From: Ulota crispa | Lineage: Eukaryota > Streptophyta > Bryopsida > Orthotrichales > Orthotrichaceae | DNA: 64,000 nt | Direction of reading: 5' to 3' | NCBI GenBank assembly: GCA_963920765.1 | Contig: OY987244.1 | Coordinates: 1,676,501-1,740,500 of the forward strand | Shown here: positions 16,432-61,646 of the stretch, piece after piece | Numbering within the stretch: position 1 is the stretch's first letter | Layout: each line of letters opens with the position of its first letter | Translations under genes and position numbers: made by a program | Notes under the pieces: model-generated | What the model was told of the DNA's origin: nothing | Seen by the model: only the letters and a program-made list of their open reading frames with translations | The model's database searches: none

Positions 16432-17374
16432 TTAACCCCTAAAGGACCAAGTCCTTTTTTCTGCCAAAATCATTAAAAACTGCCACTTTTACGAGGTTTA
16501 GTAAAAAAAGAATTTTATGTTATTTTTTTTGGAAATTCAACCATAGGATCCTGCCCCAAACTAGAAGAGGTACTTGTGGGAAAAAATCAGCTCATTCTAG
16601 ATGGAGAAGTGAGATATTTACATCTAAAGTGAAAAAGAAAGTTTTTTTCCATGCTGCTTGAAAATTTCAAAAGCCTTTAACCACTCTCATAACAAAAAAA
16701 TTGCTCTACCCAAATTTGTGCTTTATTTTTTCCATGTAGGAGATCAAGTTAGGTATGTGTGGGAGAATTTTCAAATCAATTGGAACTATACAACACATGG
16801 GAAAAAATAGTAAGTAAAAAGTAGTAGAGAATGAGTCAAAACACTAAATTGTTAAGAATTTAATTATTGAAATGAAAAATGCAAATCTCAACTTCTATAA
16901 TGTTGTAATAAACAATCTACTTCCTTTGGTTTAATTTTTTTTTCCAAAATATTGAAAATTGAGTAAAATAAAGGACATCAAAGTTTATTTTAGAGTAGAG
17001 AATCATTCTATAACTACCCGCAAACAAAATCCCCTCATGCATAACTTTCATGTCATTGATTGAAATAGAACAATTCCAAGCTTCTCACGTATAAAAAATC
17101 TAAAGAACCTATTTCAAATTTTATTTTAAAAAGAGTGATTTTAAAAGGTTTTTTTGGGTTGCCCAGACAAGCAATCCTCCCCAAATTTTCATAGATTCAT
17201 GCATAACTTCTTCATCAAATGTTGGAATGAAGAAAAAATTAGATGCCCACTTAGATCCTTAAATTCCCCACCTTCAATAAAATTTTCAAAAAATCACACA
17301 AAGTAGTTCAACCATAGGTACATGCCCAAAGTCCAACTTGTCCCCCAAAGGGACAATGGTCCTTTAGGGGTTAA
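16432..17374. mobile_element. TTAA-bounded inverted-repeat element (CCCCTAAAGGACCAAG type)
   Basis: The left end reads TTAACCCCTAAAGGACCAAG. The right end reads ATGGTCCTTTAGGGGTTAA, its near-perfect reverse complement. TTAA is present at both edges and no longer direct repeat lies outside it. The inside has no coding frame. Parts of it (around GAGTCAAAACACTAAATTGT) recur inside 59,968-60,906, and another part (around TTGAAGAAGTTA) recurs in fragments at 26,856-27,240 and 45,660-46,086. It is non-autonomous. TTAA targets with CCC-starting ends are typical of piggyBac-type elements, but the superfamily is an inference. Confidence 0.8.
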
Positions 17375-17654
17375 ACTACACCAAATAGTGCATTTAGGTT
17401 GCTTGACATTTTGTATTATTTAAATATTTACCAAGCATGTAGCAACTTTGTCAATAATTATTGTGATAAACAATAAAAGAAGCAACAAGCTCCACAATCA
17501 ACAAGTAAGGAAGTTACAACTTTAAACAAATCTAGGAATTACTGTAACATAAAGAGAGTTGCATGATCCTCCAAGTGACCAAGAGTGAGTCATGAGGTAG
17601 CTTTGCCAAGGTAAGGCAACTTAATTGTTGAGGCAACCTAAATGCACTATTTAG
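17375..17654. other. Short spacer between two elements
   Basis: AT-rich sequence with no gene. GCAACTTAATTGTTGAGGCA-like wording at about 17,620 forms only a weak local hairpin. Confidence 0.3.
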
Positions 17655-18616
17655 TGTACAGTGGCCTCCAACAAAGTTTATCGCCTCCCATTCCACGAGT
17701 TAGAGGACATAGCATGTTATGATAAAAATTTGAAGTCCATTGGCCATTTTTTTTTCTTGCATTTTTTATATTTTGTTCTTACCCCCAATCTCAACCAAGC
17801 ATACCAAAATTCAACCCCAAAAAATTAAAATCCAAACATTGATAAATTGTTTTGTGTCACAAATTATGGTTTTACATGGTTTGACAAGAAAAATGAATGA
17901 AAAACATTGATGATTTATTTTTTGCTGATTTGATTGCATGGGCATATAGGTAACATCCATACACACATCCATACACACATCCATATGTAAATCTTCCATG
18001 CTAAAAGAAAACCCCTTAAGTAAAATAGAGTTGATCTTTGAAAAGTTTAGTGTGACCCGTGATATGTCCAAACTTTGTAAAATAGACATTTTCTTATGAT
18101 AATCAAATTTTGCTACATGACTCATATATTGTGACCAAGTTTGTACCTTTGAACATGTTATTGTGTTTTTTTGGTAAAAAGCTGACTAAAAATGAAAAAT
18201 ATCTATTTTACAAAGTTTGGACATATCACGGGTCACACTAAACTTTTCAAAGATCAACTCTATTTTACTTAAGGGGTTTTCTTTTAGCATGGAAGATTTA
18301 CATATGGATGTGCATATGGATGTTACCTATATGCCCATGCAATCAAATCTCCAAAGTTCATCATCAATGTTTTTCATTCATTTTTCTTGTCAGACCATGT
18401 AAATCCATAATTTGTGACACAAAACAATTTATCAAAGTTTAGATTTTGATTTTTTGGGGTTGAATTTTGGTATGCTTGGTTGGGATTGGGGGTAAGAACA
18501 AAATATAAAAAATGCAGGAAAAAAATGGCCAGTGGACCTCAACTTCATGTCATAATATGACATGACCTCTACATGACAATAGAAGAGCCGACAGTCTTTG
18601 TTGGAGGCCATTGTAC
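17655..18616. mobile_element. Young 960-bp foldback (hairpin) element, family C
   Basis: The ends GTACAGTGGCCTCCAACAAA and TTTGTTGGAGGCCATTGTAC are reverse complements with a single difference. The two arms, roughly 450 bp each, pair through almost their whole length around a centre at about 18,130-18,180. In the 107-bp stretch ending near GACATATCACGGGTCACACT I count only one or two mismatches. The left arm has an extra CCATACACACAT repeat. A transcript would form one very long double-stranded stem. The same core, older, sits inside 24,637-25,880, and half of it is at 46,086-46,300. Frames on the two arms mirror each other and are not genes. Confidence 0.85.
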
Positions 18617-18654
18617 ATGTGCAGTAGTGACAAGGGCCCAAGGTGAATTGGCTA

Positions 18655-18705
18655 GGGTGAATTGACCCTCTCATTGTCCTTTTCTTGGATGAATGGGGGC
18701 GAGGA
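18655..18705. repeat. Solo end related to the 21,347-21,728 element
   Basis: GGTGAATTGACCCTCTCATT followed by TTTCTTGGATGAATGG matches, with a few changes, the end of the 21.3-kb element (GGTGAACTAACCCCCTCATT and a TTTCTTAGATGAATGG stretch). No partner end is nearby, so it is a fragment. Confidence 0.55.
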
Positions 18706-18711
18706 GCTCAG

Positions 18712-19633
18712 TAAACTCCTAAAAAACCATTGTTCCTACGGGAGACAAATGGGATTTTGGGCAAGTACCCACGGCCTAAATTTTTGTCATGATTTTTTGA
18801 ACCTTTTTTAAAGATAGAAAAGCACATTAGCTATTGGGTAATATCATTTTATTCCAATCAATGCTAGGGAGCAAAAGTTATGCCCAAATAAGCACAAATT
18901 TGGGGAGTCTGGGCAATAAATTTTTTTTTCCAAAAACTTGATTTTTTTTTTAGTTTTTTTTCTCATAGGTTATATCTTTGTCTACATTTGAAGCTTTGAT
19001 TCATTCTATTTGGACTAGTTATGAGAAAGTTATGGACAACCTTGTTTTTCAGACAATTCAAGCATCTTCTTGAAAAAATAACTTATAAGCTTCATTTGAA
19101 TGCAAGTTTAACATTTTTTCAAAAAAATTGTTGGACAAGGTGAAGTTTACTTTCTAGAACAATCTCACCATTGAGATTATTGCGTTTCAATTCCATTGCA
19201 TGGTTATTAACAATTCAAGTTTTTGTTCAATTTCATACCTTCTTCTACCTAATGTTTTTTTTAAGAATGAAAATCAAGTATTTTTTATTTTAATTATTTT
19301 CCCAAGATTCTCAATTCAACTTCCCACCACAAATAAATAAAGTTCCAAACTTTGTGGTGCAAAAAATTTAAGTTAAAAAAGTTCAAAGTCAAAAATCTAG
19401 TCATGCAAGGTGCAAAAAAGCTTGTTCCTTACAATTTAAATGCAAATATCTTGCAATTTGTGCGGTCAAAGTTCTTGAGTTATGTATGACACATTTTCAT
19501 ACTAGTCTAGTACAAGATCCTATGGTCACATATGCAAAAAGACCAATTTGCAAACTTTTTTACTCTTTGCCATAGAAATGACAGTTTTTAGTGTTTTTCA
19601 ACAAAATAAAGGCCATGGTCCTTTAGAGGTGAA
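18712..19633. mobile_element. Worn TTAA-type inverted-repeat element
   Basis: The left end (TAAACTCCTAAAAAACCATT) and right end (ATGGTCCTTTAGAGGTGAAC) are imperfect reverse complements of the CCCCTAAAGGACCA type. The passage ACAAATGGGATTTTGGGCA near the left end recurs at 26,900 and, reversed, near 46,050. The edges have decayed from TTAA (TAAA and TGAA), indicating an older copy. There is no coding content. Confidence 0.6.
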
Positions 19634-20107
19634 CTTTTGAAATCTTGGGCAATATTCCCGACACAATTCATTAGCTAGGATTGAGGTAACCTCCTCAATT
19701 CAAATTGAGGTGGCTATTTTGAATTGAGGTGAGGTACAAATTGATACCTCTGTTTTTCCCAATTTACCTAATATGAATGTATGAGCTCAATTGGGCACTT
19801 CAAATCTTCAAACGTAGGAGCAAGCAGATGGACAAGCAGTTCAATGTGACAACCATGGACATGGTGTCACATATCAAAATTTTGTGAGTTTGGAAATCTA
19901 CCATTATTTAGGAGTTTGAATTTGGAAATTTGACTTCATATTGGGATTCAGAGGCCTTTATTTAAGTTAGAACCCTGAAAGAGAAAATAATTGAACTCTA
20001 CAAAAATGAGGGACAAATTGTTACGTTTACCCTTGTCTGAAAATTACAAAACTTTTCAAATCTAATCCGAAAACATTGCACAGTGGATAGGGCCCCAAAG
20101 CTTGAAC
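19634..20107. other. AT-rich DNA with a half MITE relic
   Basis: Short self-complementary AATTGAGG/CCTCAATT motifs lie at about 19,690-19,740. At 19,900-20,060 is a worn half of the 400-bp Mutator-like family, with a TGAATTTGGAAATTTGA stretch followed by a GAGGCCTTTATTTA-like passage. No gene. Confidence 0.4.
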
Positions 20108-21003
20108 TTAACCCCTAAATGTCCAAGGGTGTTTTTCTTGTTTTTGGAAGGCAATTTTGAAGTTTTTGATTTGTCCTTGTAAGATCATTATTAAACATCA
20201 AAATAAAATTGTAACTGTTGAATCTTGAACTTCAAGACTTCTACATGGCGTTACCTAAAAAGAATTCAAAATAGCCACGCAGATTTTAAGATATTTGCAA
20301 TTGAATGATGATGAGAATAGAATTTTTTGCTTTTTCTAAAGTTTCTCAAAACTTCTAATGCAAATTGGCAACTTTTGGATACAAGATTGGAAAACAACCA
20401 CTTAGATTGTTTTAGTGTTTATTGTTGTTACTTCAAATTCAATGGCCCCCCTTCCAAATCCATGACCACAATTTCACAAATGAGCCTACAACACAACTGT
20501 CAAAACGCAACCGTCTAATGCAAAGAAATTTTCAGCTCCAATTATTGACCAAAAATCATTTTGAATGAAAGAATTTTTAATGGTGAAAGGATTCTGATTT
20601 TTATAACAAAGACATTCCAAGTGAAATTAGTCCAAAAGCACTTTTAGATTTTGTTAGATGTCAAAATTTCAGTAAATAGGCCCTTATTGCCCAAGGGAGT
20701 GTCCAAGGGAAATCTTCACCTTTTGCTCAACTTGATGCCTGCCTTTTCAATGTGGCAATTTCTAATAGGCTTTGTGACACTATTAATGTCACAAAATGTA
20801 TGCTTGTAGTTAACCTTCCACCAAAAATAATTGGAATATGATATGGAGGAAGTTGAATCTGAACAATGGAGTTAACTTGAACGTGCAACTTTTCCAAAAA
20901 AAAGAACGTGAAAATGATAAAATCCATGCCCTCAACAGGATTTCAAAGTTTTGGGAAGTTTTTTGAACACCTAAATTGGGTGCCTTTGGCATTTAGGGGT
21001 TAA
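20108..21003. mobile_element. TTAA-bounded inverted-repeat element, 896 bp
   Basis: The left end is TTAACCCCTAAATGTCCAAG and the right end is CTTTGGCATTTAGGGGTTAA. TTAA is exact on both sides and no longer flanking direct repeat exists. The inside is non-coding. Another inverted-repeat element (21,006-21,305) begins 3 bp after the right edge, so the two insertions abut or one targeted the other's edge. Confidence 0.8.
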
Positions 21004-21005
21004 GG

Positions 21006-21305
21006 CTCCCCATACCCGACCCCTCCCCAATTTCAACCCTTTTGTACTCATGGTATACATTTCAATTATGAACACTACAAGTGGGAGCTGTGTCAATTTG
21101 GACATTTCTAGTCAAGTAGGACTACTTTATTTGGACATGTTTATGTCAATTTGAACTTTTTTTTGTCAAATTTTTGACAATTTGGACGTTTTAGTCAATT
21201 TGGACATGTTGATTTGGACACTATTTTCTTGTAGTGGAAATGTACACCTTGGGTACAAAAGGTCGGAATTGGGGATGACTATATTAAAGGGTCGGGTATG
21301 GGGAG
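21006..21305. mobile_element. 300-bp inverted-repeat element (CTCCCCATACCCGACCC ends)
   Basis: The left end CTCCCCATACCCGACCC pairs with GGGTCGGGTATGGGGAG at the right. The stem continues with AATTTCAACCCTTTTGTAC against GTACAAAAGGTCGGAATT. The loop carries repeated CAATTTGGAC-like words, which may be the subterminal binding sites seen in many DNA transposons. No clear target duplication and no coding frame. Confidence 0.7.
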
Positions 21306-21346
21306 GGTTACCTTATTCATTGAAGCATGGCATAGAGCAATGAGTA

Positions 21347-21728
21347 GGGGAACTAACCCCCTCATTGCGTCGTGCCTCGATGAATGAAGCCTTAGGGATT
21401 TGTCTAAGGCACATCCACATTTTTGCCTTTTGGGATAAACTCAAAAAGTTTTGTAATTTTTATACAAGGATTAAAAGTAATAAAATGCCCCCTATTTTTG
21501 TGGTGTTTAATCATTTTCTCCTTTGGGGGTTTAGACTAAATCAAGTTTTTCAAATTTAAATGTGGAGTTAATGTTTCCAAATTCAATCTCTTAATGAATT
21601 TTTTTTGAACTTTCAGAATTTTTGAAATGTGAAATAGCAAAGTTTTTTACCTTGGCCCCATATCCTTGTAAAGCGACTGAATGAGCTCCATTCATCTAAG
21701 AAAAAGGCAATGAGGGGGTTAGTTCACC
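21347..21728. mobile_element. 382-bp inverted-repeat element (GGKGAACTAACCCCCTCATTGC ends)
   Basis: The left end GGGGAACTAACCCCCTCATT and the reverse complement of the right end, GGTGAACTAACCCCCTCATT, differ by one base. A second, weaker pairing (GATGAATGAAGC against GCTCCATTCATC) lies just inside. A solo end of the same family is at 18,655. No target duplication was found. Confidence 0.7.
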
Positions 21729-22028
21729 ACGACCAAGAGACAACAACTCATCCATATTTATCTCTTGGTCACTGCTCTTGGTCTCTTGGTCATGATTAAT
21801 GGATAATTTTCTGACGTTGGTCATCTACAATTATAGTGTAAATGAACTTATTAGTAGTACCTTAGGGGCTTGGGGGTTTGATAATTTATTGTACTCTTTT
21901 CTTCAATTTTTGCAAGCTTATTCATTTTTCTCTTCCTCTTTCATTTTTTATTCCCACTTTTTTAAATTTCAAAAATTTGGATGCCAAGAAAAAGAGGAGG
22001 AAATTCATTATCAAGATTATAGAAGTTA

Positions 22029-22274
22029 AACACGGTATTCATTAATTTGAGAAAAAATCTTTCCCAAAACAGATTTTGGGATACTTGATTTTGCATTTGT
22101 GAGAGTAATTTGGTGATTTAAAGTGAGGTTTTTTCTTAAAGGCATTTCATCATTGATGTAAGGTCTTTAAGAAATCATCATAAATTTGCCTTAAATCACC
22201 AAAAATCTTTTGAAACTGTAAAATCCAAAAGTCTCTAACTATAGATATTTTTCCCAAATTAACAAATATAGTGT
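22029..22274. mobile_element. Short inverted-repeat element related by its ends to family D
   Basis: The left end CGGTATTCATTAATTTGAG and the right end CCCAAATTAACAAATATAG pair imperfectly, in the style of 2,322-2,588 and 44,319-44,590. The inside differs from those two. An inner pair (GGTGATTTAA / TTAAATCACC) lengthens the stem. Confidence 0.5.
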
Positions 22275-22719
22275 TAGTTAGTACTAAAGCTTTCATTAAT
22301 AGTGGAGAATACAACATAAATAACCATGCCATTGTTTTAGTGTGTTTACTATGTAACTAATTTTAAGAAAATACGGTATTGAACAAAAAGTCATTCATCA
22401 CAATAAATTCTTCAACATACATCCATTTATTGTAGTAATACTATAGTCAAGCAATGGAGCAATCAAAATACCTTTCCTGTAATGATACAACATTTCAACA
22501 TTAAAATAACACTCAAGCAAATTATAGAAACTGTATTTCCAACAATGAAACTGTGTTGCCAAATGTCAATAATAATACAAAATAAAATTATATGTTGTTG
22601 CCAAGGTAATTTGTATGCAATTCACCCAGGTTTAAATATTAATTTTATTCTTATAATTAGAAAAATGCATTACGCTTAACATACAAAAATGTTCTCTACA
22701 AAGGAAATCTATGGTAGCT

Positions 22720-23132
22720 AACCCTTAAAAATCCGGCTAGTCACCGTGCATTTGTGCCTACCCCTCTACAGTGCTATGTAATGTTCTCTACACTACAATG
22801 ATCTAAGTTGATCTTTACAGCAGTGTGGCAAGTACCTACTCATTATAATACTCTTTCCAAAAGTTGCAAAGATCAAATATGTATGGTGTTATCATGAAAA
22901 TTGCAAGAAGAGTAGCATAGGATCTAACACCATGTATGTGAATCCTCTCCCAAATTACAATTTGGGTTACCTAAAAATATGAGTGCATTTATTGAATTCT
23001 TTTTTTGCCTTCCATGATGGAACATGTATTTGCAATCACTCTTTAAAAAATTTAGATGAATTTTTTTTTTTTCCATCATATAAAGGATTTTTTAGGGGAT
23101 GAAAAATATTCCCTTGAGCATTTGAGGGTTAA
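22720..23132. mobile_element. TTAA-type inverted-repeat element, 413 bp
   Basis: The left end is CTAACCCTTAAAAATCC and the right end is GAGCATTTGAGGGTTAA. One edge keeps TTAA and the other reads CTAA. Length and ends match the shorter members of the family (for example 36,820-37,184). No coding frame. Confidence 0.6.
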
Positions 23133-23213
23133 CCCATTAATGACTAGGGTTCCAAAAATACATGAGAAATTGACCACATTTTGGTTGCCTGGTCGTTAAT
23201 GGGTTAATGGAAA

Positions 23214-23614
23214 GGGAAATGCTAACGTGACACCTTAAATTGCTAACATGACACCCCCTGCGAGCATGAAATGTGATTTTTAATACTAATTTTTTAAATT
23301 TGGATCAAAAAATTTGTTTCACCTTTAAATCATTTCTAAAGCTATACTAAAAAAATAGGTGTGCATTAATTTGAAACTAAATATATAAGAATTTTGAGTT
23401 ACTTAAAGCAAAAAAACATCAAAAAATAGTATTGGTGCAATAATATTTCAACAATAATCTGTATTAGTCATGTTTTCTTTCAAGGAGGTGATAATGCTGT
23501 GATAGAATGAATGATGGAACACTTGAAGAAATAAAAAATAGCACTAAATTATCAAATTTCATGCTCACTCAAAATGTCTTGTTAGCAATTTAGGGTGTCT
23601 TGTTAGCAATTCCC
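23214..23614. mobile_element. Mutator-like MITE, 401 bp, 9-bp target duplication (8/9)
   Basis: The left end GGGAAATGCTAACGTGACAC pairs with GTGTCTTGTTAGCAATTCCC at the right. At each end the terminal motif (TTGCTAACATGACACC type) is present twice in tandem. The flanks TAATGGAAA (23,205-23,213) and TAATGAAAA (23,615-23,623) match at 8 of 9 bases. Length, GGGAA start and 9-bp duplication match the elements at 14,262 and 41,013. Confidence 0.82.
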
Positions 23615-23815: not shown

Positions 23816-24247
23816 GGGGAAATTATAAATAGGGGCATGAAAAGGTAAAATATTACAAATAGGGGCGCAGTTTGAAAATAATTACAAATAGGGGCACAAT
23901 TTTTTTTAAATTGTGATTTTTTGTAAAAAAATTTGGTTTGGACATTGGTTGATTTAGACACTTCACATTTAATGTTAGCTAATTTCCAAAAAACTTAAAG
24001 GTCTCTCCAAATCAAGCCTAAGTAAAGATATTTTAGCAAAGAGGATGGCAATTTTTGAAGACTTTATATTTTTTTGGAAGTTAGCTAACATTAAATATGA
24101 AGTGTCTAAATCAACCAATGTCCAAACCAAAAATAATTTACCAAAAAGCACAATTTTTTTTCAATTGTGCCTCTATTTGTAATTATTTTCAAATTGCGCC
24201 CCTATATGTAATATATAACGTTTTCATGCCCCTATTTGTAATTTTCC
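23816..24247. mobile_element. 432-bp inverted-repeat element with iterated AAATAGGGGC ends
   Basis: The left end GGGGAAATTATAAATAGGGG pairs with CCCCTATTTGTAATTTTCC at the right. Each end carries three spaced copies of the word AAATAGGGGC (or its complement), about 30 bp apart. The stem continues through GAAGTGTCTAAATCAACCAA and its partner. Flanks are A/T-rich and give no decisive target duplication. No coding frame. Confidence 0.72.
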
Positions 24248-24636: not shown

Positions 24637-25880
24637 TTAACCCCTAAAGGTCAAAGAGGACAATTATTGTTCTTTTGGTGCAAAAAAATAGTCTAGGGGT
24701 TGGAAAAACAGCTTATTTTATTCAATTTTTTTTTCAATAGCGATTGTTGCAAGGTTCTTCACCACGGAGTGCCAAAATTGGATTGATTGAAAGTCCTCAT
24801 GTTTTTCAAAATTGAAATTTGTGAGAACATTCACAACCATGGTTGATAAGTCCCCTCTTGCCCTTCTTACAAATTTCATGTGGGTAGCATGCACTATTGA
24901 CTTTTCCCACTTTTTGAAGCAATACTATAGGCTGGGCACAGCTTGAGCACTGTAGTTGTACAATACCAGGCAAGCATGAATTGTCCAGTACCTTGCTATA
25001 GTTCAAAGAACTTCCCATAATATATAGCAAATTTGAGATTTTGTTGTTTTGAATCATGGAGAACAATTCTTATGCAATCCCAACCAAGCATACCAAATTT
25101 TGATTCCAAAAAACCAAAACCCTATTTTTGGTGAATAAATGGGTATTAAATTCATGATTTTACATGAAAATTGATTGAAGAAAATTAGTGATGATTTTTT
25201 TAGATTTGGTTGCATGGATATGTTGGAAACATCCATATGCACATTTTCCCTTCTAAAAAGAACCCCCTTAAGTAACAAAATTATGAACAAAAAAGAGTTC
25301 AATGTGAGGTGTGGTAAGACCAAAATTTGTAAAATAGATATTTGTTTATGATAATTAATTTTTGTTATTTGATTCATACAATGTGACTAAATTTGTACCT
25401 TTAAACATGACAATATGTTTACTTTGCCAAAAACCAATTAAAAATTAGAAGTATCTCCTTTACATATTTTGGTCGTACCACAACCCATATTGAACTCTTT
25501 ATCGATCATAATTTTGTTACTTAAGGGGGTTCTTTTTAGAAGGGAAAATGTGTGTATGGATGTTTCCAACATATCCATGCAATCAAATCTAAAGAATTCA
25601 TCACCAATTTTCTTTAATCAATGTTCATGTAAAATCATGAATTTAATACAAAATAATTCACCAAAAATAGGGTTTTGATGTTTTGGAATCAAAATGTGGT
25701 GTGCTTGGTTGGGATTGCATAAGAGTTAGTCTCTATGTTTTAAAACAACAAAATCTCAATTTTGTTATGTATTATGGAAAGTTTTTTGAATTGCAACAAG
25801 GCACCAGACAATTCATGCTTGCTTGGTACCGTACAGTGCAAAGCAGGCCACGACTATGGGCCCAGGCGTTTAAGGGTTAA
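24637..25880. mobile_element. TTAA-bounded element carrying a family C hairpin core
   Basis: The edges are TTAACCCCTAAAGG at 24,637 and TTTAAGGGTTAA ending at 25,880. Inside, the sequence from about 25,070 (CCCAACCAAGCATACCAAAT) to 25,715 is an inverted repeat of about 300 bp per arm. It has the same order of motifs as the hairpin at 17,655-18,616 but many more mismatches, hence is older. The left flank segment (TTTTTGAAGCAATACTAT) is shared with 36,820-37,184. This shows that the long hairpin and the TTAA-type ends belong to one system. Confidence 0.78.
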
Positions 25881-25959
25881 GCTTACAAATTCAAGACACT
25901 TGAGAATAGCTTTCTCACAAAATAGATTTGATTTCAATACCATATAGGTAGTTTACCCT

Positions 25960-26853: not shown

Positions 26854-26855
26854 GT

Positions 26856-27240
26856 TTATTAATCCCTAAAGGATCCAGCCCCCTTTTTGGGGACAAATGG
26901 GATTTTGGGCATGTACCTATGGCCAAACTACTTTACTTGATTTTTTGAAAATTTTATAGACAATGAGGAATTCAAAGATTTACGTGGACATCTAATTTTT
27001 TCTTCATTCTGAAATTTATTGAAGAAGTTAAAAATGAATTTTTGGAAAACAGGCAAGATTGGGCAGCCCAATTTTGCCCGTTTTCCAAAAATTCATTTTT
27101 AACTTCTTCAATAAATCACAATGGGAGAGGAAAAGGCACCCAAATGGATGACCCAAAGTCACTAGAATTGTGGAAATTCATTGCAATTATGGAAAGTTAT
27201 TCAAATTATTCAAATTTGATATTTTAAAAACATTACAATT
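26856..27240. mobile_element. Fragment of a TTAA-type element containing a 101-bp palindrome
   Basis: It starts TTAATCCCTAAAGGATCCAG, an imperfect copy of the family end, and continues with a passage (ACAAATGGGATTTTGGGCAT) shared with 18,740 and 46,050. At 27,015-27,115 it turns back on itself as a nearly perfect palindrome. The expected opposite TTAA end is missing. Confidence 0.6.
27015..27115. repeat. Near-perfect 101-bp palindrome
   Basis: Arms 27,015-27,064 and 27,066-27,115 are reverse complements at 48 of 50 positions around a single central base. The arm begins TTTATTGAAGAAGTTAAAAA. The sequence is a terminal piece of the TTAA-type element doubled in inverted orientation. Such structures are unstable in replication, so the high identity suggests a recent event. 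Confidence 0.9.
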
Positions 27241-36819: not shown

Positions 36820-37184
36820 TTAACCCCTAAACGTCGAGGAGGACGAAAAACGTCCTCCGGCTCTGAAAAAAGATTCTATGGTAAAAAAATAGTCGTTTTT
36901 CATCTGATTTTTTTCAGAAGTGACCATAAACACTTGGTCCATCATGTAAGACAAAAAATTACCTCTTCAGATGCATTCATTTTTTTTGTAATCCAAATTG
37001 TGATAAGATTCAAAAACATGGTGTTAGCTCCCAAGTTGCCCCTCTTGCAATTTTCATAAGGACACCATGCACTATTCACTTTTCCAACTTTTTGAAGCAA
37101 TACTATTGGTGCCCATGTGCAAAACACTGTAGATTGCTAGAGGCAAGGCAAGCCACGGTGATCCATCCGTCCTTTAAGAGTTAG
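36820..37184. mobile_element. TTAA-type inverted-repeat element, 365 bp
   Basis: The left end is TTAACCCCTAAACGTC and the right end is CCGTCCTTTAAGAGTTAG, an imperfect reverse complement; the right edge has decayed to TTAG. Internal sequence (TTTTTGAAGCAATACTAT, CACCATGCACTATTCACTTT) is shared with the left flank of 24,637-25,880. It lies 500 bp downstream of the TPR stop codon. Confidence 0.7.
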
Positions 37185-37446: not shown

Positions 37447-38406
37447 TTAACCCCTAAAGGACCAAGTGGTTGTTCAATAGCCACTTGAGAACTGGGGTAG
37501 GGTCATATGAAGTTAATTTTTATTAGATGTTCTCAAAATTGTTACACAAGGTGCAAATATGTATCCTCCAAGTGCAAATCTAATTTTTTCCCAATCGGAG
37601 GCCCGGTTCAAAAGTTATGTTACCCAAAAGCAATTGAGCAATTCTGGCAATTTGAGCATCTTTGGAGAGTCTTATGCTGAAACTCTCATCAACTTTTGAA
37701 ATTTGGCAAGTATGTAACTAAAAAAACAATAATGTACAATTTTCAAAAAAATAAATAAATAGAGCTTTCACATCACATTTTGAAGGGAGTCAAATTTTGT
37801 TAATTATGTTCAGGTAGTTTCAAGAAAAATAAATTCCTCTAACTTCAAGCCCTATTATCTTTCAATCTATAAACCAAAGCTCTTGAAACTTTTTTTCACA
37901 GATTCCGGATGTTTGTCTCCAACTATCTACCGTTTGGATTTCAAATTAAAGACTTCCATATTGCACAAGAAATCGTGAAAGAATGACTAATGTATTGCCA
38001 ATTCACTAAACCTCCTTGCATTGGAGGGTGATTTAGAATAAGCTAAACTCTATATTTGCATCTGAAAATTTTCATGAGTGAACCTAGCATCATATACTTG
38101 TGAATGGTCAAAAGCTCATTTTTGTGTAGAGCAAAAAAATTACTTTAGGAAGGGTCAAAGTCTGCTGACCTTGTTTTGCAGGAATGAAAAAAAGTTGTTT
38201 TTCTCACTTCAAACGTTATAATCTTACAATCTGCGTTGTCAAATGGACTGAGATTTTTTCCACACGTAAGTTTATTGGTTTTACAAACTCCTATATGGTT
38301 GGAAATGAGAAAAAAAGATTTTATTTTTGATTTTGGGCAATGCTTTAAAAGTTGACAGTTTCTGAGATTATTTCTCAAAAAACACCCTTGGTCCTTCAGG
38401 GGTTAA
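37447..38406. mobile_element. TTAA-bounded inverted-repeat element, 960 bp
   Basis: The left end TTAACCCCTAAAGGACCAAG pairs with CTTGGTCCTTCAGGGGTTAA at the right with one mismatch. TTAA is exact on both sides with no longer duplication outside. The inside has no coding frame and shows little further self-complementarity. Confidence 0.82.
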
Positions 38407-41012: not shown

Positions 41013-41422
41013 GGGCATTGATATGTGAACCACACCCTTTGAACTACTATACCACACCCTCGGGATAAATTTTAGATTTCTACCATCAAAAATTTGAGTT
41101 TGAGAATTTTGAATTCAAATTTGGACTTCGAGACCATGATATTGTCTAGGACCATAAAAAAAGTTGCAATTCAACATCACCCAATGAAAAAGCTTACCTT
41201 TTTTTACAAATAAAAGTAAAATTAACAATTTTCTCCCTAACTAAACTTTTTCATTGGGTGTTGTTGAATTGCAACTTTTTATGGCTCTAGACAAAACAAT
41301 GGTCTCTAAGTCCAAATCTAAATTCAAAATTTTCAAATTCAGCTTTTTGATGGTAGAAATCTAATACTTATCTCGTGGTGTGATATAGTAATTGGAAGGG
41401 TGTGGTACACATATCAATTCCC
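41013..41422. mobile_element. Mutator-like MITE nested inside the CACTA element, 410 bp
   Basis: The left end GGGCATTGATATGTGAACCA pairs with the right end GGTACACATATCAATTCCC. Flanks ATTTTTTAA (41,004-41,012) and ATCTTTTAA (41,423-41,431) match at 8 of 9 bases. The arms pair for about 180 bp, including TTGCAATTCAACAACACCCA-type sequence. Its inside resembles 9,090-9,490. It inserted after the CACTA element had formed. Confidence 0.85.
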
Positions 41423-44590: not shown

Positions 44591-45660
44591 TTTCATGTAC
44601 ACAAAACCTAAATGTAGTGGAGTCTCAAATGTTTTCTACCCACGTCCTCCCTTCTATATTGGCGTGTATTTGTTCATATTTTGTTTTACCTAGTTCGTCT
44701 TACTATCTGTAAGTGGAGTCATAACATTGTTAACCTTCACTACGGGGTTCCCTTTTGCTCCCCTAATATGAGAATCCTGCAGCCAATGCGATTGGCGGAC
44801 TCTGGACCAACACCAGTGGAGATCTTTAACTGAACTCAAGCCCAGGTATCCAGGGGCAAATATCCCTCCAGCTGAGGGAGGAATATGACCTGGTAAACAA
44901 ACAATGTTATGAGTAGGCATGATTAAATTACATTACTCTGCCTACTATTATTTGGATGAAAGTATGACTATCTTTTTCACCACTACAGTACATTTCATTA
45001 ACACAGCAAAAGTTTCAGAAGAAGGACCTGGTCTCCCAAACCTACAATTCTGTTCGTTGCTATATTTATCGTCTTTGAAGATCAAAGATTGGTACTTTCC
45101 CTGCCGTCTGTGTACCACTGTAGAGGTAGTTATAATTTAATAAATAGTTTACTTTGTTCAGCTGGATACGTACTAATTCTCACCGTTTGAGCAATGAACG
45201 GAGAGAGCCGAAAAACAATAGAAAGTCAGCGGAATGAATTGTGCAAAAAACCGATTGAAATCTAAATAAATTGGCTAAAAATCAAATAAATTTTTGAAAA
45301 ATTTCCAATTATAGTGTAAGTATATGATGAATAGTCGACACATCCATTTGGATAAAAATGAGAAATGTAAGCTTTTAACCGAAAAAGCTCAAAATCTCCC
45401 CGCACACTGCGTTTGAGTATACATTCTGAGGCAATAGGGCCGCGCACATGACATTTTGTAAGCCCACCGTTGGACGTCGCACCAGCTTGGGCGGGCCCCC
45501 ACCCTGACCTAGTTTTTGAATGCAGCAGGTTCACGGAGCTTTCCGCTGGGTGAAAAAAAATACCTCCCCTCACTCTCCCAAGGCAAACATTAAAAAAATA
45601 TCTCCCCTCACTGTCCCCAGGAAAACATTGTTGTTGCCCTTTTCTGTTCACAAACTTTAG
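44591..45660. other. Mixed DNA with a G+C-richer patch and a 38-bp tandem pair
   Basis: A patch at 45,400-45,640 is richer in G+C. In it, 45,554-45,591 and 45,592-45,629 are a tandem pair of 38-bp units around CTCCCCTCACTSTCCC. Minus-strand frames at 44,690-44,920 and 45,262-45,651 lack splice support. I recognise no gene. Confidence 0.35.
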
Positions 45661-46086
45661 TATATAAAAATTGGCGTTTTACTTTGTGTGATTTTTTGAA
45701 ATTTTTATAAATGATGAGGAATTCAAAGATCTACTTGGGAATGTAAATTTTTCTTCATTCCGACATTTATTGAAGAAGTTAATTATGAAAATCTAGAAAA
45801 TGATGCTCCTTGGATAGCCAAAAACTTCTTTAAAAATTTCATTTTTTCAAATAAAAATTTGAAATAGGTTCTTCATACTTATATAGATGTGGGGAGTTTT
45901 AAATCATTCAATGTTGATAAATGAGATGAAAGTTATGAGAAGTTTTAGTTTGAGCGTAGGTGTGGTTTTGAGAGTTCCTCATCTTCCGTAAAAGTCTCAA
46001 AAAAACACGCAAAGTAGTTTAGCCATAGGTACATGCCTGTAATCCCATTTGTCCCTCAAAAGGGCCCTTTGTCCTTTAGGGGTTAA
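45660..46086. mobile_element. Right-end fragment of a TTAA-type element
   Basis: It ends TTTGTCCTTTAGGGGTTAA at 46,086. Inside it shares CATTTATTGAAGAAGTTAA and a CATAGGTACATGCC stretch with 16,432-17,374 and with 26,856-27,240. The left end is missing. Confidence 0.65.
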
Positions 46087-46300: not shown

Positions 46301-48083
46301 TGCAATATAATATAATTCCAATTGATGCCAATTTTATTCTATAACATGCTAAAGGGTGAAAGGAGGCTATAAACTTTGTTGGAGGGCATTGTAATTCATG
46401 AACTCACATACTGTGTAGTTTTGGAGTGTTGTTTGGAAGAGGTGAGAGGGGGTCAAGTTACATTTCAAAATTTATGTCATTTTTGTTGTTTTTTTTGGAG
46501 GGGGGATGCTAATAGATATTGTAAGGAATGTTTTTTTTTTTTAATAGACTTTCATTTTTTGGGTATCAAGAGCTTTTGAGGTTTTTCTTTCTTATTTTAT
46601 TTTGAGAAGCATTTACAAGGGAAAAAAATGAAGAACAATCGTTGCCCCTCTCTTGGGTCACTTGAGAACCATCACCTTCTTCATCATTAACCACTAAATA
46701 CCTAAGGCCTATTTGAGTTTCTTGGAATTTTGAACAATCAAACAACTTTTTCATAAATTTTATGAAGTTTTTTTTAGTTGTAACCGTACAAATTTAAACT
46801 AAACATGTTAAAGATTACATGGGAAAACAAAAAACACAAAAACATCACTTCTACTCTCTTTGTTCCAATATAAAGCTCCAAGTTAGACATAGTTCTTGTC
46901 CCACTAAAAAGCTACCTTTTGCTAATTTCAATTGTTGAGAAAGTGTTTTTCATGTCCAATGGTTTCATGGGGGTGAGTTAAGCAATTAGAGAGCATTCCT
47001 CTCCTAACAAGCTTGGCCTTGCCCATATGAGGTACCATTGTTGCTACTAATCTTTAAATTATCAATAATGAGGAGTTGGCAACATGTACAAATATGGTAC
47101 TTTTTGCATGTAATTTGGATGCCCAAATAGCACATCAAAGCTAGAAATTTTGCAAACATTTGGTAGATGGTATATTGATTCTAGAATGCATGTGTCATTA
47201 GTACAAAAATAAAAATAATGAGGGGCTGGCAGCATCCACAAACTATGTACAAATATGGTACTTTTTGCATGGAATTTGGGTGTCTAAATGGCAACATAAA
47301 AACTTGAGATTTTGCAAACATTTGGTAGGTGGTATATTGATTCTACAATGCATATGTCACTAGCATAATGACTAACAACACAGTTAATCCCTTATGGAGA
47401 AGTTTTTGGAGTTTTATAATGGGACAAATGGAGTAGTTTGAAGATTATAATGTTTGGACATGAGGGTGTTAAAACTGCAAAAGTGATTTGAAGTCTTTGA
47501 ATCCTCATTTCACATATCAAATCTAAAAAGTTGGTCACCAAAAAAACATGAGGTTTAAGGTCATTACATGTCTAACTTTAATCAATGTACAATTTAAAAA
47601 ATCTACTCCTATATCTTTTTCTATATATTTTTCAAATGGATTTCTAATGTGGTTTTTTCTCCAAGCTCTAGTGTGTTTGAGGCTCATTTTCAAGATCTTC
47701 CAACACTAGAGAGCTAAAGAGTGCATTGGACACCCTTTGTACAAATCTTGAGTAGAAAAATTATCAATTTTCATTTTCAAAATCAGATTTTTGATATTGA
47801 AAATAAACTTCAAAAAAAACTTGTATTGAAAAAAGAATATTGAAAGTAGTGATTTGATAAGGTTTCATTTATCTTCAAAGTTTTATAAAAACCCAAATAT
47901 GGTTGCTCAAGCATTTAAGGGTCAAACAAAATTGTCAAAATCCCTCTACGAAACTGTGCAATGTCACTTGAATTTACAACCATGACTCATTTAGACTTGG
48001 TTTCAAAGAGGAGAAAAAAAGATCCTATGTTGCAGAAAAGTTCAATTTCTGAGAAATTATTTGGAAGGTGCTTTTGAATATTG
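46301..48083. other. AT-rich DNA with repeats
   Basis: 47,067-47,385 is an imperfect tandem duplication with a period of about 161-162 bp (around ACAAATATGGTACTTTTTGC). 47,540-47,925 is a reversed copy of the 54-kb family core ending in GCATTTAAGGGTCAA, a worn family end. No gene. Confidence 0.5.
47067..47385. repeat. Imperfect tandem duplication, period about 162 bp
   Basis: AATATGGTAC TTTTTGCATG occurs at 47,091 and 47,252, and TGCAAACATTTGGTAG at 47,151 and 47,313. The copies differ by scattered substitutions and short gaps, so this duplication is older than the one at 5.7 kb. Confidence 0.8.
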
Positions 48084-53021: not shown

Positions 53022-53796
53022 TTAACCTCTGAATGGCCCAGAGGACCAAAAGTGTCCTTGCATGATTTCAAAGGCTTGTTTGAGGCACTAGATTTATTTA
53101 TTTTTGATTGTGCTATAAACTAAAATTATGAAAGCATTCAAGTTGTTCATGCTAATGGAGTAATGGCAAGGAAAGCCAAATGTTGTACACATGCTGCAAG
53201 AGGTTTGATTAGGTGAAACACTATATGGGGAGTGGTGACAAGCAGCATTTTACAAGCTGCAACCGGTCAATGTCCCTTGCAAGATTCCTTGTGTGAGCTT
53301 TGTGGTAGTGGGCAAATTGTTGGCAAAGGTTCAAGCATGTTCTAGACCCTTATTATGGCAACCCTCACCAACTGTGTCGGTCATCATTTTCCATGTGATA
53401 GCAATTTGAAGCCCTAAAGCTTGACATAAAAAGAAGTGCAATCTTGAATAATTTACAAGTGTGTGCATTCACGTCTAATCTTGGTGCTCACAAAAATTGA
53501 GATGAATCTGGGGCTTATAGAATTTTGTAAAAATCATCAAATAGCAACTACCTACCAAAAAATGAGATTTTGTCATCACATGTTGTTTGATCAAGTGTTA
53601 TAATCTCCCATCTCCCGCTATGAATTGTTCCCAAAATTTGCAAGTGATTTTCTAAGTAGATGTTTCACTATTTTCAATGGTCACTTTTTGTGGATCATCC
53701 AATTGACTAAGATACAATGCATCAAAGTTGTCGGTCTCCAAAAACCCTCCAAAAACCTTGATTTTGGTGAAAACAGCTTGGGCGCTCAGGGGTTAA
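53022..53796. mobile_element. TTAA-bounded inverted-repeat element, 775 bp
   Basis: The left end is TTAACCTCTGAATGGCCCAG and the right end is CTTGGGCGCTCAGGGGTTAA. TTAA is intact on both sides. The inside is non-coding. Confidence 0.75.
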
Positions 53797-54192
53797 CCTT
53801 GTAAGGATTGGTCGACCTATTTGTGGTTGATTTTGACTCTTTTCAGTTTGTAGAGAGAACATGTCAAGGAATTTGATGACATGGCAAAGGGGACAAATAT
53901 CGGGAATTGGAAAGTGAAGAGTTTAGGACAATGATCAAGCCAATTTGAGGTGGCATGTGGCTAGAGGGTTGAAAAAACTAAAAGAGTACCAGCTGAAAAT
54001 ACACCAAGAAATGTAAAAAGATGGTCGTAACAACTAAAGAGTGAGCAAAATTCATGATACATGACACTAAACCGTGCAAGATACTTCATCTCTATGGTCA
54101 GATCTGTCGTACACATCTATATTCAAAAGTTTGAAAATTTCCCTCAAATGGCCATACAAAGGATTGCCCACCCCCCAAATTAACCACAGTCC

Positions 54193-54814
54193 TTAACCCC
54201 TAAATGCCCAAGCAACCAGATTTGGGTTGCAAGAAAATTTTGAAAATGAATAAAATCTTATCAAGTCATGATTTTCAGTTTTTTATTTTCAATATAAGTT
54301 TGTTTTCAAGTCTACTTTCAATATCAAAAATCTGATTTTGAAAATAAAAGTTGATGATTTTTTTACTTGAGATTTTGTACAAGGGTGTCAACTGCAATCT
54401 TGAGTTTTCTAGTGTTGGAAGATCTTGAAAACAAGCTTCAAATACACTAGAGCTTGGAGAAAATCCACATTAAAAATCCATTTAAAAATAATGTAGTAGA
54501 TTTTCAAAACCATAAACTGATTTGAGTTAGACATGCAATGACCTTCAACCTCATATTTTTATGGAGACCAACTTTTTGGATTTGACATGTGAAACAAGGA
54601 TTGGAAGAATTTAAGTCACTTTTGTAGTTTTAACACCCTTGTGTTCAAACATTATAATCTTTCAAACTATAAGTGATATTGTTGTGTTTTCTTTTTCCAT
54701 GTAATCTTTTACAATTGAAAAAAACTTGATGAAATTCATGAAGAGGTTGATTGATTGTTCACTTTCATGAAAAGTCCAAGAAGCTCAGATAGGGCTTGGG
54801 CATTTAGGGGTTAA
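54193..54814. mobile_element. TTAA-bounded element with perfect terminal repeats, 622 bp
   Basis: The ends TTAACCCCTAAATGCCCAAG and CTTGGGCATTTAGGGGTTAA are exact reverse complements, and the pairing extends one base further (C/G). No direct repeat lies outside TTAA. The core, including CAAGGGTGTCAACTGCAATC, is the dispersed repeat seen at 7.0, 15.4 and 47.6 kb, so this copy defines the boundaries of that family. There is no coding frame. Confidence 0.88.
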
Positions 54815-55267
54815 AGGGTTAAGAGAGAAATTCTATTGTATGATTGTATTTGATGATAAGGCCTAATTTTGACATTTTTGATAGTTACATCCAACACTTC
54901 TCAAAGTATGATCAATTTTTTGGGAATAAAAATAGTTTAATAAGGACAAAACTTGCCCACTCCAAATTTCACTCAAGAGCAATCAAAGAGAAGATCAACA
55001 CCAAGTAGGAAAGGACTTTTGGGTCATGCGGTCATACAAAGCAAGGAGTAGGCCATTACGTAATACATCATTTACTAACTTTGCATGTCCTGGGAGTCAC
55101 CCAGGCTCCACAGCTGAATAAAGTAAGAATAATGAAACAATGTAATAATGTAATGGTAAGAACAATGATTACCACTCTACTAAAATGGCAAAGTATCAAG
55201 TAATTGGCACTTTTACAAGCACCCGTCTGGGAACCTCAAATCTACACCAGTCCTAGATTCCAGAACC
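54815..55267. other. 3' flank of the EMB8-like gene
   Basis: AT-rich sequence with no gene. It must hold the 3' untranslated region and poly(A) site of the neighbouring minus-strand gene, but no signal stands out. Confidence 0.4.
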
Positions 55268-58200: not shown

Positions 58201-58780
58201 GCAGCCCCATGATCAGTGCCGCCACGCTCAAGCTCGCCGCCGCGACCGAGGGCAGCGCTTGCCAGCTGGTAGCGGCGGCTTGCGCTCTCACCCCCGGCGT
58301 CCTCGTCGACTCTCTTCTGCTGGTGGTGACGAGCTTGCGCAATTGCAATTGGAATTGCGCTCGGGAGGCGCGACTACAACTAAGCTTAGTGCAGGCAGCG
58401 AGCCCAGCCAGCGCAGCAGGCGCTTCCCGAGATGGCGACAAATGGGCTGTTGTTGCAGACGAGAGCATGAGAGAAGCGGTCAAAGGTAGCGCCTTGCGAG
58501 AGTGGGAGAGGGAATTCTCCTCGCAGCGGTGAATGCGTGACGGTGGCCCACAGGTTGCGAATTGGCGTCGTCGCAGGTGGTGGTAGTGGTGCAGCAAGAG
58601 CAGCGAGCGGCATCGAAGGAGCGATGGCAGCGCCGTGGTAGTCCGTGCCATGAGCTCCTTCACCGCAGCCGAGTAGCCGACCCCGCTCGCGTCTGTCAAC
58701 AACCGCACCTGTGAACACGACTGCCGTGGGGGTGGCGTGGGCACATTCGATTCGCAAGAAACTGCCAATTCTAGCGTCAT
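55268..58780 (-). CDS. EMB8-like alpha/beta hydrolase (YheT/ABHD1-3 family)
   Basis: Seven exons join in phase: 58780-57929, 57761-57633, 57438-57307, 57100-56860, 56254-56160, 55863-55810, 55510-55268, giving 581 residues from the first ATG. The first 180 residues are rich in Ser, Ala, Leu and Arg, with MARTTTALPSLLRCRSLLLL at an internal ATG (58,651), and look like an organelle-targeting region. A hydrophobic segment (SVAAASLSVAALIMGL) may anchor it to a membrane. The family core follows: LTNRHMETIFAAFF, PGLTGGSDDTYVQHL, NSRGCADSP. The nucleophile elbow GWSLG places the serine at about 359, STDPIAP the aspartate at about 487, and YGGHLGW the histidine at about 516, a complete triad. The last 60 residues are acidic then basic. 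Relatives are lipid or ester hydrolases and the substrate is unknown. Both ATGs are possible starts. Confidence 0.95.
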
Positions 58781-58884
58781 GCAACATCATGCAATGTGCT
58801 AAATTTATGTTTAACTATATTGCTTTTACTTACGTGGATGAAAAGTGCATCAGCGATTAATCGTCCATCACCCCCTCAAAGCCC

Positions 58885-59292
58885 AAACAACCGTTGGGAG
58901 CGACTAGGTGGACACCCTGCAATTGCTATGCCGACACCATAGTCAAATCTATGAAATTTGAGAATATAATTACACTGGAAATAAAATCAAAGCAATACTT
59001 TAGAATACATCTGCGTTTATAAGCACTGCGAACATACCACAAATCTACCTCGAGTCAAACCAATAAATGAAGGGAGCAATTGGTTTAACTCCTAATTGTG
59101 TCATAAATGAGGCAAATTTGTTGTATGTTTGCAACGCTTGTAAACGCAGATGTACGCTAAAGGATGGCTTTGATTATATTTCATTTTTCAGTGTAATTAT
59201 ATTCTCAAATTTCATAGATTTGACTATGGGGGTGTCTGCATAGCAATTGGGGGGGGGTGTCCACCTAGTTGCTCCCTTATTGTTTTAGGCAT
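58885..59292. mobile_element. About 400-bp foldback MITE just upstream of the EMB8-like gene
   Basis: GGGAGCGACTAGGTGGACAC at the left pairs with GTGTCCACCTAGTTGCTCCC at the right, and the pairing goes on through CAAATCTATGAAATTTGAGA and its partner. It extends outwards a little further (AAACAA...). A 90-bp G/C-run difference and indels separate the arms. It begins about 100 bp upstream of the first ATG of the hydrolase gene, so it probably lies in the promoter or 5' leader. No clear target duplication. Confidence 0.8.
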
Positions 59293-59967
59293 TAAAACGC
59301 CTAAGAGCTACAAAATTATTTTCCCTAAGTCAATTTTTTTAAAAGATATAGTAAAAATAAAATAACATCGTGGTGTCAAATGTCGCTTAACATTCCAAAT
59401 CTAAATGCTTGTCACAAATTTTTTAAAAGGAATGATGTTGTTACTCATACCTAGCCAATTAGGACCTCAAGTGGCAAACAACATGGCTTTCAGATCATAG
59501 AGTCCTAAAGTTTGGGAAACAAGTTGCCCTTAAGTTTCTTTAGAATGATGTAAGTTTTTGGGTTTTGTAGCCCATATTTATATGATATTCATTTATGCAA
59601 TGCCAATTTTTTATTTAGGAAAATTTGGTCACAGCCAATAAGTTCAAAGTGTATATACTTGCAGCCTAATACTATGCTTAAAAAAAAACCCAATGTGGCC
59701 ATAACTACACACTCAAAGATTACCAAATAGCTTGAGAATTTATTAGTCCAAAACCAAAAAAAAAACCCAACAACCAATCCATTTCAAAATTATTTTAGAT
59801 TTCTTATTATGTGTGACCAAAAACATTTTAATTACACTTTTTGACCATTGCTTGGCAAGGAAACTATATTACATAGTAACCAGGCTTAGTATTTTTTTAA
59901 ATACGTACTTTGGTAGCAATATGGACGTAGAAGCATGTGAAATTTCTAATAAGGTCAACCTTTTAGT
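59293..59967. other. AT-rich DNA, nothing recognised
   Basis: No exon-like frame. The minus-strand frame 59,589-59,777 is hydrophobic and A/T-driven. Confidence 0.35.
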
Positions 59968-60906
59968 TTAATCCTTAAAGGCTTTTGACTATGTTTTCAT
60001 CAAAATTGCTCCAAAACTATCATCTCGCAAGTATCAAATTTTAGATTAAAATCATTTATAGACATATCTAACCATAAGATCTTGTAGTACATTGATACCT
60101 AGAAATGTGGAAAAAATTTCAAAAATATTTTGCCACATAGATTGTTAGATAATTGAGTGTAAATCATCAAAAAGTCATTTTTTTATCCTTACAAAAATCC
60201 GTGCAGCTGCACTTCACAAGGTCATATTTGTATGAAAATAATTTCAAAATGGTTGTAATATTTTGGATTGATTCTTTAGGGCAAGTCTAGTACACACTTA
60301 AAAAAATTCAAATCATTTCAAATTGCACAACACATAGGAAAAAGATAGTAAGTGAAAAGAAGTAGAGAATGATTCAAAACACTAAATTGTTAAGAATCTA
60401 TTATGAAAGTTTAAAATGCCAATCCCAATAGTCATAATGTTGTAATAAACAATGTACATCCTTTGGCTTTTATTTTTTTCCAAAACACTAAAAATTGAGT
60501 AAAACATAGGACTTAAAAGTTTTTTTTAGAGTAAGGAATCCATAATTGCCTGCAATTAGAATCTTCTCATAACTTTCATCTCATTAATCAAAATTGAATG
60601 ATACAAAGCTTCCCAACTACATATAAATCTAAAGAACCAATTTCAAACTATTGTTTTTTTAAATATTATTTTTGAAAAAAATTTGAGCTGCCGAGGCTGC
60701 TCTCAAAACAAAAAAAACAACATATCATGCATTAACTTTTGAAACATGTAGTCAAAAGTTATGAAAATTGTTGGACCTCAAAGTTACTCCTTGGGCACAC
60801 CATGCAAAAAAATTTAAAGGAAAAAAAAATGAAAAAGCCATTTGTAGTGAGCTCCCCAAAATTGCTATGTTACCAAAAAATCACTGTTTGGGCCTTTACG
60901 GGTTGA
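59968..60906. mobile_element. TTAA-type inverted-repeat element, 939 bp
   Basis: The left end is TTAATCCTTAAAGGC and the right end is GGGCCTTTACGGGTTGA, imperfect. Internal sequence around CAAAACACTAAATTGTTAAG matches 16,432-17,374, so the two are older siblings. One edge has decayed from TTAA to TTGA. Confidence 0.65.
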
Positions 60907-60984
60907 AAATGGGTTAGAAGAAATGAGCATGTAAGCTATTGTAACAACAAAATTTCAAAGAATTACTATTATGAAATCATCATA

Positions 60985-61646
60985 TTAACCCCTAAGCGCC
61001 CCTAGTTGGATCGATTGTCAGGGGTCATTTCAAACACTACTCCAGATTATTGTGTGCTGTGAGTCCAGTTTTGAGATTGGTTTGACTTCACCGTCGAAAG
61101 GGTCGAATGGGTGGTAGATGCACAAGGTTCAAAAAAATTTAGCCTCATTCACGGCACATCTTGCAATTTTATCATAGTCAAACATCAGTTGACCAAGAGG
61201 GAACCGGCTCTTTTTGGGAAGGGATCTGGTTTAGGGTGCAAAGTTCATGGTGTTACAAGAGGCGCCTTTCCCTAAAATTTTGGGATGGGTTCAAAGGTTT
61301 AGTTAGGTCCTGAATCCAAAATTTTGAGACATTTTCATATCTCCTTGGTGCTTTTTGGGAGGCTTGAACAGCAGGTACTAAAATGAGCTCTCCCCAAGAA
61401 TGTACGGTTTATCCTTGGGTGCGAACATGCGGAAACCTAAATTCTGTTGTACACCCTCACCTTGCATGAATCCCATGCATGTGTCCCAAACCATAAACAA
61501 CCATCACCACTCTCTCTCATGAGAAGTACCCCACCCCCAACCCCCAAGTATAGTCTGGGCTAGTACAAACCAGATTTGAATGTAATTTATTGCAAACTTT
61601 AATTTTCAAAAACCCAATTTGGGCACCAGGGGCACTCAGGGGTTAA
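60985..61646. mobile_element. TTAA-bounded inverted-repeat element, 662 bp
   Basis: The left end is TTAACCCCTAAGCGCCCCTA and the right end is AGGGGCACTCAGGGGTTAA. TTAA is exact at both edges. The inside is richer in G+C than its surroundings (61,000-61,560) and has no convincing frame. Confidence 0.78.

Follow-up and report, generated by a model that had tools for sequence, protein, structure and literature searches.

The question raised by a 64,000 bp stretch of the genome of the moss Ulota crispa (hereafter the window; the genome comprises 274,817,297 bases in 157 contigs) is which kind of transposase moved the short, TTAA-bounded elements that recur along it. Short transposon relics with TTAACCCC ends are dispersed across this genome in many copies, and an initial annotation of the window had read them as piggyBac-type elements with a TTAA target and a larger, transposase-coding partner. 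That core reading is borne out by the presence in the genome of elements that encode a PF13843 domain between exactly these ends, an outcome set beforehand as supporting piggyBac. The window elements are very probably miniature non-autonomous piggyBac transposons, that is, miniature inverted-repeat transposable elements (MITEs); homology to coding elements establishes this for the type at 16432, and a common terminal motif extends it to most of the others.

An abundant terminal motif

With up to two mismatches allowed, TTAACCCCTAAA occurs 45 times in the window, compared with 10.6 expected (mean of shuffles; maximum 19 in 100 shuffles). Genome-wide, 15,477 exact copies of the 12-mer lie on one strand and 15,495 on the other (30,972 in total), against 41 and 36 (77 in total) for a reversed-pattern control. 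The excess of the motif in both window and genome is real. A scan with a 20-bp consensus, scored at 15 or more of 20, returned 37 ends in the window and 11 in the reversed-window control, from which it follows that some of the weak window ends are due to chance.

Ten of the eleven elements that the initial annotation had named by their start as paired have ends on both sides, some of them only at two mismatches; for the remaining one, 36820, a right end was sought and none was found. Exact TTAACCCCTAAA forms the left end in six of the eleven. The proposed length range of 365 to 1,244 bp keeps its upper value and loses its lower one, since the ten pairs span about 413 to 1,244 bp, and of six sites listed as fragments 26859 and 46086 have good ends, 15240, 47925 and 50229 have weak ones, and 45660 is without the terminal motif. 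The statement that such elements dominate the intergenic DNA proved too strong: elements and fragments, some with approximate limits, total 11,129 of 64,000 bp, or 17% of the window. None of the five open reading frames of at least 150 aa in the window lies inside an element. MITE traits are present, namely a length of roughly 0.4-1.2 kb, no transposase, fixed ends, and 40-42 scored matches in each of three subfamilies; almost all of these matches span both ends, and first-look candidates run into the thousands.

Transposase-coding elements with the same ends

Two transposase families were profile-searched genome-wide: PF13843 (DDE_Tnp_1_7, piggyBac) and DDE_Tnp_4 (Harbinger). For PF13843 there were 528 candidates, of which 116 were scored and yielded 120 matches, with a best E of 1.3e-73; the family matched in none of 14 control genomes. 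Thirty of these loci were taken with 1.5 kb flanks, in which TTAA pairs yielded no convincing inverted ends; the ends lay farther out and were reached by extension, carried out for six of the thirty. The flanks of four loci (L025, L026, L034 and L038) ended in sequence resembling window positions 16567-16796. Extension in the 3' direction reached an exact TTTAGGGGTTAA 1.6-1.8 kb beyond the domain in all four, and homology among the four copies ends at the terminal TTAA, within one base. Extension in the 5' direction reached exact TTAACCCCTAAA in three of the four, thereby delimiting the coding elements on C5, C9 and C8 (Table 1).

That repeats in this genome sit inside or beside each other, as do foldbacks within piggyBac loci, gives some room to the alternative that the piggyBac genes are nested in unrelated TTAACCCC-bounded elements, for instance those of Kolobok or Sola, superfamilies that likewise target TTAA and lie outside the two families searched. 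Such nesting is rendered very improbable by the C9 and C8 copies, which at 62% and 60% protein identity to the C5 copy are laid out like it and have ends homologous to its own on both the 5' and the 3' side, by the C6 copy (62%), which has the C5-type 3' end, and by a second piggyBac lineage with matching ends of its own, described below.

The elements might instead be PIF/Harbinger MITEs, in which case a DDE_Tnp_4 transposase would have mobilised them and left 3-bp TWA duplications. DDE_Tnp_4 is abundant in the genome (150 matches scored of 278 candidates, in a family that also matches in one of 14 control genomes), and one such locus lies in the window at about 12416-12910. Yet 28 of 30 DDE_Tnp_4 loci taken with 1.5 kb flanks, beyond which ends would have escaped, are without the motif at up to one mismatch; of the other two, L047 has one single end, and in L063 a paired element (356-1269) ends at the point where the Harbinger match starts and does not surround it. 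A DDE_Tnp_4 partner with the same ends was not seen around the domain in these 30 loci, and a Harbinger origin was rejected on this ground. Additionally, a left-hand TTA and a right-hand TAA do not form a direct repeat, and piggyBac elements with exactly these ends exist, all of which leaves Harbinger with next to no likelihood. The window itself carries a PIF/Harbinger-like element at 10680-13134, in which the DDE_Tnp_4 match just mentioned is broken and which is 86-89% identical to L063 on C10.

Characterization of the encoded protein is consistent with piggyBac. Among three open frames read, the longest (L019, 389 aa) matches PF13843 at 4.1e-67 and, among structures in the PDB, piggyBat 9c0f at 2.6e-24 and 6x67, taken here to be the T. 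ni piggyBac, at 7.6e-20. Its motifs TVDEIM, DNFFT and GVDIVDQ would fit the Asp triad, being presumably the segments that hold the three catalytic aspartates (DDD). All three motifs are present in L019, L025, L034 and L038, among others, and in several of the 30 loci the scan missed one or more. Ten of the 120 rows, at eight places, none of them among the extended loci, have a stop-free PF13843 match. Matches of equal score on opposite strands 15-20 kb apart were noted at C7:18203169 and 18223004 and at C2:36765124 and 36779670, which suggests inverted duplications or assembly artefacts.

From coding elements to window elements

The element at 16432-17374 provides the clearest link. Its left end corresponds to the piggyBac 3' end and its right end to the piggyBac 5' end: specifically, 16432-16784 is 78% identical over 360 bp to the 3' end of the C5 coding element and 17175-17375 is 86% identical over 201 bp to the 5' end (E of 2e-76 and 2e-63). 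The centre, about 16797-17175, has no counterpart in the coding elements obtained. The element is thus a pair of piggyBac ends minus the coding middle. Similarly, in the element at 18712 positions 18714-18815 match the C5 5' end at 79% and 19503-19633 the C5 3' end at 71%, 26854-27038 matches the 5' end at 82%, and 46086-45972 (83%) together with 45680-45791 (89%) matches the 5' end region. Direct sequence links to coding elements therefore cover the elements at 16432 and 18712 on both sides, as well as the single ends located at 26859 and 46086.

Most other window elements are tied to piggyBac by the shared terminal motif only. The element at 24637-25880 shares with the C9 piggyBac element just its palindrome (74% over 627 bp), a foldback of a type also found elsewhere. 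Some elements share sequence among themselves: part of the 54193 element recurs at 81% identity in 47434-47925, and 60307-60657, within the element at 59968-60906, is common to 16770-17127.

Table 1. Elements and fragments in the window, and coding elements elsewhere in the genome
Feature	Position	Length	Strand	Ends and remarks
Non-autonomous piggyBac element	16432..17374	943 bp	-	Both ends exact TTAACCCCTAAA
Degenerate piggyBac-derived element	18712..19633	922 bp	+ (opposite to 16432-17374)	Both ends match C5 element
TTAA-bounded element	20108..21003	896 bp		TGYCCAAG-type left end; both ends exact motif; piggyBac link through terminal motif only
Degenerate element	22720..23132	about 413 bp		Weak left CTAACCCTTAAA at 22718; TTAACCCTCAAA at 23132; terminal motif only
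TTAA-bounded element	24637..25880	1,244 bp		Large palindrome 24957-25835 inside; linked by terminal motif
Fragment, piggyBac 5'-type end	26859..27071		+	Right limit approximate
Fragment	36820..37110			Exact left end; right limit approximate
TTAA-bounded element	37447..38406	960 bp		40 scored matches including itself, of 1,829 first-look candidates
Fragment, piggyBac 5'-type end at 46086	45660..46086		-	Left limit approximate
Possible element or two fragments	46687..47925			Degenerate ends; pairing uncertain
TTAA-bounded element	53022..53796	775 bp		TTAACCYCTGA-variant ends
TTAA-bounded element	54193..54814	622 bp		TGCCCAAG-type ends, both exact; 41 scored matches including itself, of 3,215 first-look candidates
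Degenerate element	59968..60906	939 bp		Both ends degenerate
TTAA-bounded element	60985..61646	662 bp		Motif ends, TTAA pairing
Fragment of 54193-type family	15240..15822			Weak left end; right limit approximate
piggyBac coding element	C5:24506226-24515054	8,829 bp		PF13843 between exact TTAACCCCTAAA ends
piggyBac coding element (L026)	C9:12440860-12449389	8,530 bp	-	PF13843 between exact TTAACCCCTAAA ends
piggyBac coding element	C8:11097229-11105483	8,255 bp		PF13843 between exact TTAACCCCTAAA ends
Second-lineage element L009	C3:13130262-13135289			90% identical to L018 over 5,029 aligned bases
Second-lineage element L018	C10:11524996-11530022			90% identical to L009 over 5,029 aligned bases

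Under this reading, a piggyBac transposase would have bound the short terminal repeat together with adjoining sequence, excised the element at TTAA and inserted it into another TTAA. Derivatives retaining the ends could have been mobilised in trans and amplified in bursts, which would be old in the three subfamilies dated; the remaining window elements, to judge from the common terminal motif, may have moved likewise.

TTAA as the probable target site

The behaviour of the four bases at the element edge was assessed in a sample of ends defined by a fixed CCCCTAAAGGACCAAG and a non-G just outside it, namely the 100 that come first in a listing of 2,994 and that all lie on C1. Exact TTAA is present in 75 of these 100 ends, conservation of its four positions stands at 87, 90, 95 and 90, and single substitutions number 6, 3, 3 and 4 across them. 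TTAA thus behaves as a unit, varying as one 4-bp block. This bears upon a Tc1/mariner-like origin, in which the duplication would be TA and the true ends ACCCC...GGGGT, and to which the palindromic nature of TTAA lends itself, since TTAA empty sites alone cannot separate a TA from a TTAA duplication. A TA duplication leaves the outer bases free unless the transposase preferred TTAA, whereas all four bases are about equally conserved; moreover, the domain encoded by the coding elements is that of piggyBac (mariner families lay outside the two families searched), so that Tc1/mariner elements are a scarcely credible source.

For the best-preserved copies, the initial annotation had noted TTAA on both edges with no direct repeat outside it, which made TTAA the likely duplicated target. 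Of 18 elements that were paired automatically, drawn from the window and from collected loci, 15 carry TTAA at each edge, a biased sample in that the consensus used for pairing includes TTAA and seven pairs come from loci picked by the exact motif; the pairing at window 17564-19633, which counts among the 18, is probably wrong. Flanks outside TTAA match at 0.24, compared with a background of 0.26, and no direct repeat beyond TTAA rises above background in the 18 pairs.

The sequence to the right of the element at 53022-53796 (53793-53886) is itself a repeat, with 29 further rows at 85-93% identity, 26 of which start no more than two bases from the TTAA. This repeat could represent the terminus of an adjacent element, or else indicate that the element proper extends beyond its assigned limits.

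Evidence weighing against a piggyBac origin

Several results pull the other way and have to be set against the evidence above. Firstly, before extension the motif (at up to one mismatch) lay within 1.5 kb of the domain in none of the 30 piggyBac loci, and the termini described above come from the six of the 30 that were extended. Secondly, the 5' end of the C6 copy was sought by extension and not found, its 3' end being that of the C5, C8 and C9 copies, and in a motif scan the C9 copy (L026) showed no third Asp motif. Thirdly, no working autonomous copy was present among the six extended loci, all six of which carry stops in the domain; the partner that the initial annotation had called unseen has thus been located as coding elements, the description of it as autonomous having found no such backing in these loci. 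Fourthly, the elements at 20108, 22720, 37447, 53022, 54193 and 60985 have no match of more than 100 bp (E 1e-5) inside the coding elements.

Finally, no empty site was found when seven joined-flank sequences were compared with the genome, when L063 was considered, and in a scan of about 360 kb. That scan, of 123 candidate pairs, gave one match, in which a 6 kb pair, itself implausible, hit a foldback. Genome searches with one joined flank and then with six returned no match running well across a junction; the six-flank search was weak for the other five elements, as the repeat to the right of 53022-53796 took 29 of its 41 rows. L063 was rejected as an empty site, since only the right-hand part of its joined flanks aligned with the window copy. 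In view of this, the evidence for duplication of TTAA is indirect.

Age of the elements

Forty copies were scored per subfamily, being the best of 1,829 candidates for 37447-38406, of 3,215 for 54193-54814 and of 9,312 for 16432-17374. Apart from the query itself, copies of full or nearly full length show 84-90%, 86-90% and 85-89% identity to it, respectively; the 16432-17374 search also returned two short partial matches at 80-81%. Near-identical copies are absent from those scored in the three subfamilies. This range fits old bursts in the three subfamilies dated. The initial annotation had described the family as active or recently active, a view with which neither these identities nor the stops in all six extended loci agree. 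Exact ends are very numerous in the genome, and the stop-free PF13843 rows noted above could likewise be taken as signs of activity; given that even the best candidates in three subfamilies reach only 84-90%, recent activity of elements otherwise as described here is unlikely.

A second lineage and the diversity of ends

In addition to the 8.3-8.8 kb elements, the genome contains a second piggyBac lineage, consisting of 5.0 kb elements with TTAACCCCTCATYGCC-type ends. Homology between its two representatives, L009 and L018, stops on the left at TTAACCCCTCATCGCC in L009 and TTCACCCCTCATTGCC in L018, and on the right at GGCAATGAAGGGTTAA in both; both domains carry stops. The L009 and L025 domains share 32% protein identity, and a tree of 30 PF13843 loci has several deep branches. 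The piggyBac transposase loci of this genome are many and fall into deeply separate lineages.

Short terminal repeats start with CCC at both the CCCCTAAA and the CCCCTCAT ends, and the start of the terminal repeat is common to the two lineages despite a protein identity of about 32%. In the genome, TTAACCCYTCATYGCC occurs 192 and 208 times and TTAACCCCTAAATGCCCAAG 1,351 and 1,391 times, with 0 and 0 in the control for each. These observations leave room for a tentative proposal, somewhat more doubtful than not, that mosses harbour a piggyBac radiation, both old and diverse, whose many transposase lineages keep one terminal code, TTAACCCCT[A/C]A, and could therefore cross-move each other's miniatures. 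If true, piggyBac MITEs would rank with the largest classes of repeats in a land-plant genome, and would have been overlooked where plant MITEs are sorted into five superfamilies. The window contains a short inverted pair, 21347-21390 and 21685-21728, with CTAACCCCCTCATTGC ends, which closely resemble the end sequence of the second lineage.

Comparison with known systems

The moss elements resemble the piggyBac superfamily, as typified by piggyBac of Trichoplusia ni and piggyBat of bats, in their PF13843 DDE domain, Asp-triad motifs, TTAA edges and short CCC ends, as well as in their sequence similarity to transposases of solved structure (9c0f and 6x67). They differ from known piggyBac elements in their host, a moss, and in their ends, CCCCTAAAKGMCCAAG. 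Elements of this superfamily have been described mainly in animals, where, according to the available text of one study, they measure 1.23-9.51 kb, mostly occupy TTAA sites and mostly have CCC-type 5' ends (PMC10813416); at 5.0 and 8.3-8.8 kb, the moss elements lie toward the long end of that range.

Two comparisons can be drawn for the miniature forms. Like the coral CMITEs, as portrayed in the available text, they are short non-coding elements related to piggyBac-like transposons of their own genome; the coral elements are more conserved in the middle than at the ends, whereas in the moss the ends are common and the middles differ between subfamilies (PMC2872659). Like the plant MITEs surveyed in 207 genomes, they are short, non-autonomous and present in high copy number; the available portion of that survey names five main superfamilies, none of them piggyBac, and its main text has no TTAA (PMC12550479). 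For plants in general, piggyBac has been recorded before. Two studies, in their accessible text, mention plant piggyBac elements (PMC10140906, PMC10813416), the available part of a review includes piggyBac in its list of MITE superfamilies of angiosperms (PMC10004981), and 1,230 piggyBac copies are tabulated for a fern genome (PMC6890710). Novelty may lie in the scale reached in a moss and in a start of the ends that is common across lineages. Among the literature matches listed there was no account of moss piggyBac MITEs, which does not prove their absence from print; a hit to 'piggybac' in a Niphotrichum paper was discarded, the word there being piggybacking.

With about 31,000 exact piggyBac-type ends and 120 scored transposase matches, the genome would make a strong case for including TTAA-bounded elements in plant repeat annotation, and would offer a natural plant system for studies of end recognition and cross-mobilisation.

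Foldbacks and other repeats

Seven palindromic (foldback) repeats of about 0.4-1 kb are present in the window, at 9088-9492, 14264-14661, 17655-18617, 23817-24247, 24957-25835, 41013-41422 and 58896-59276. All four extended loci of the 8 kb type have relatives of the 41013 or 25085 type, situated approximately 1.0-1.6 kb upstream of the PF13843 domain. The window also includes, at 5684-6188, a near-perfect tandem duplication of 258 bp (99.6%).

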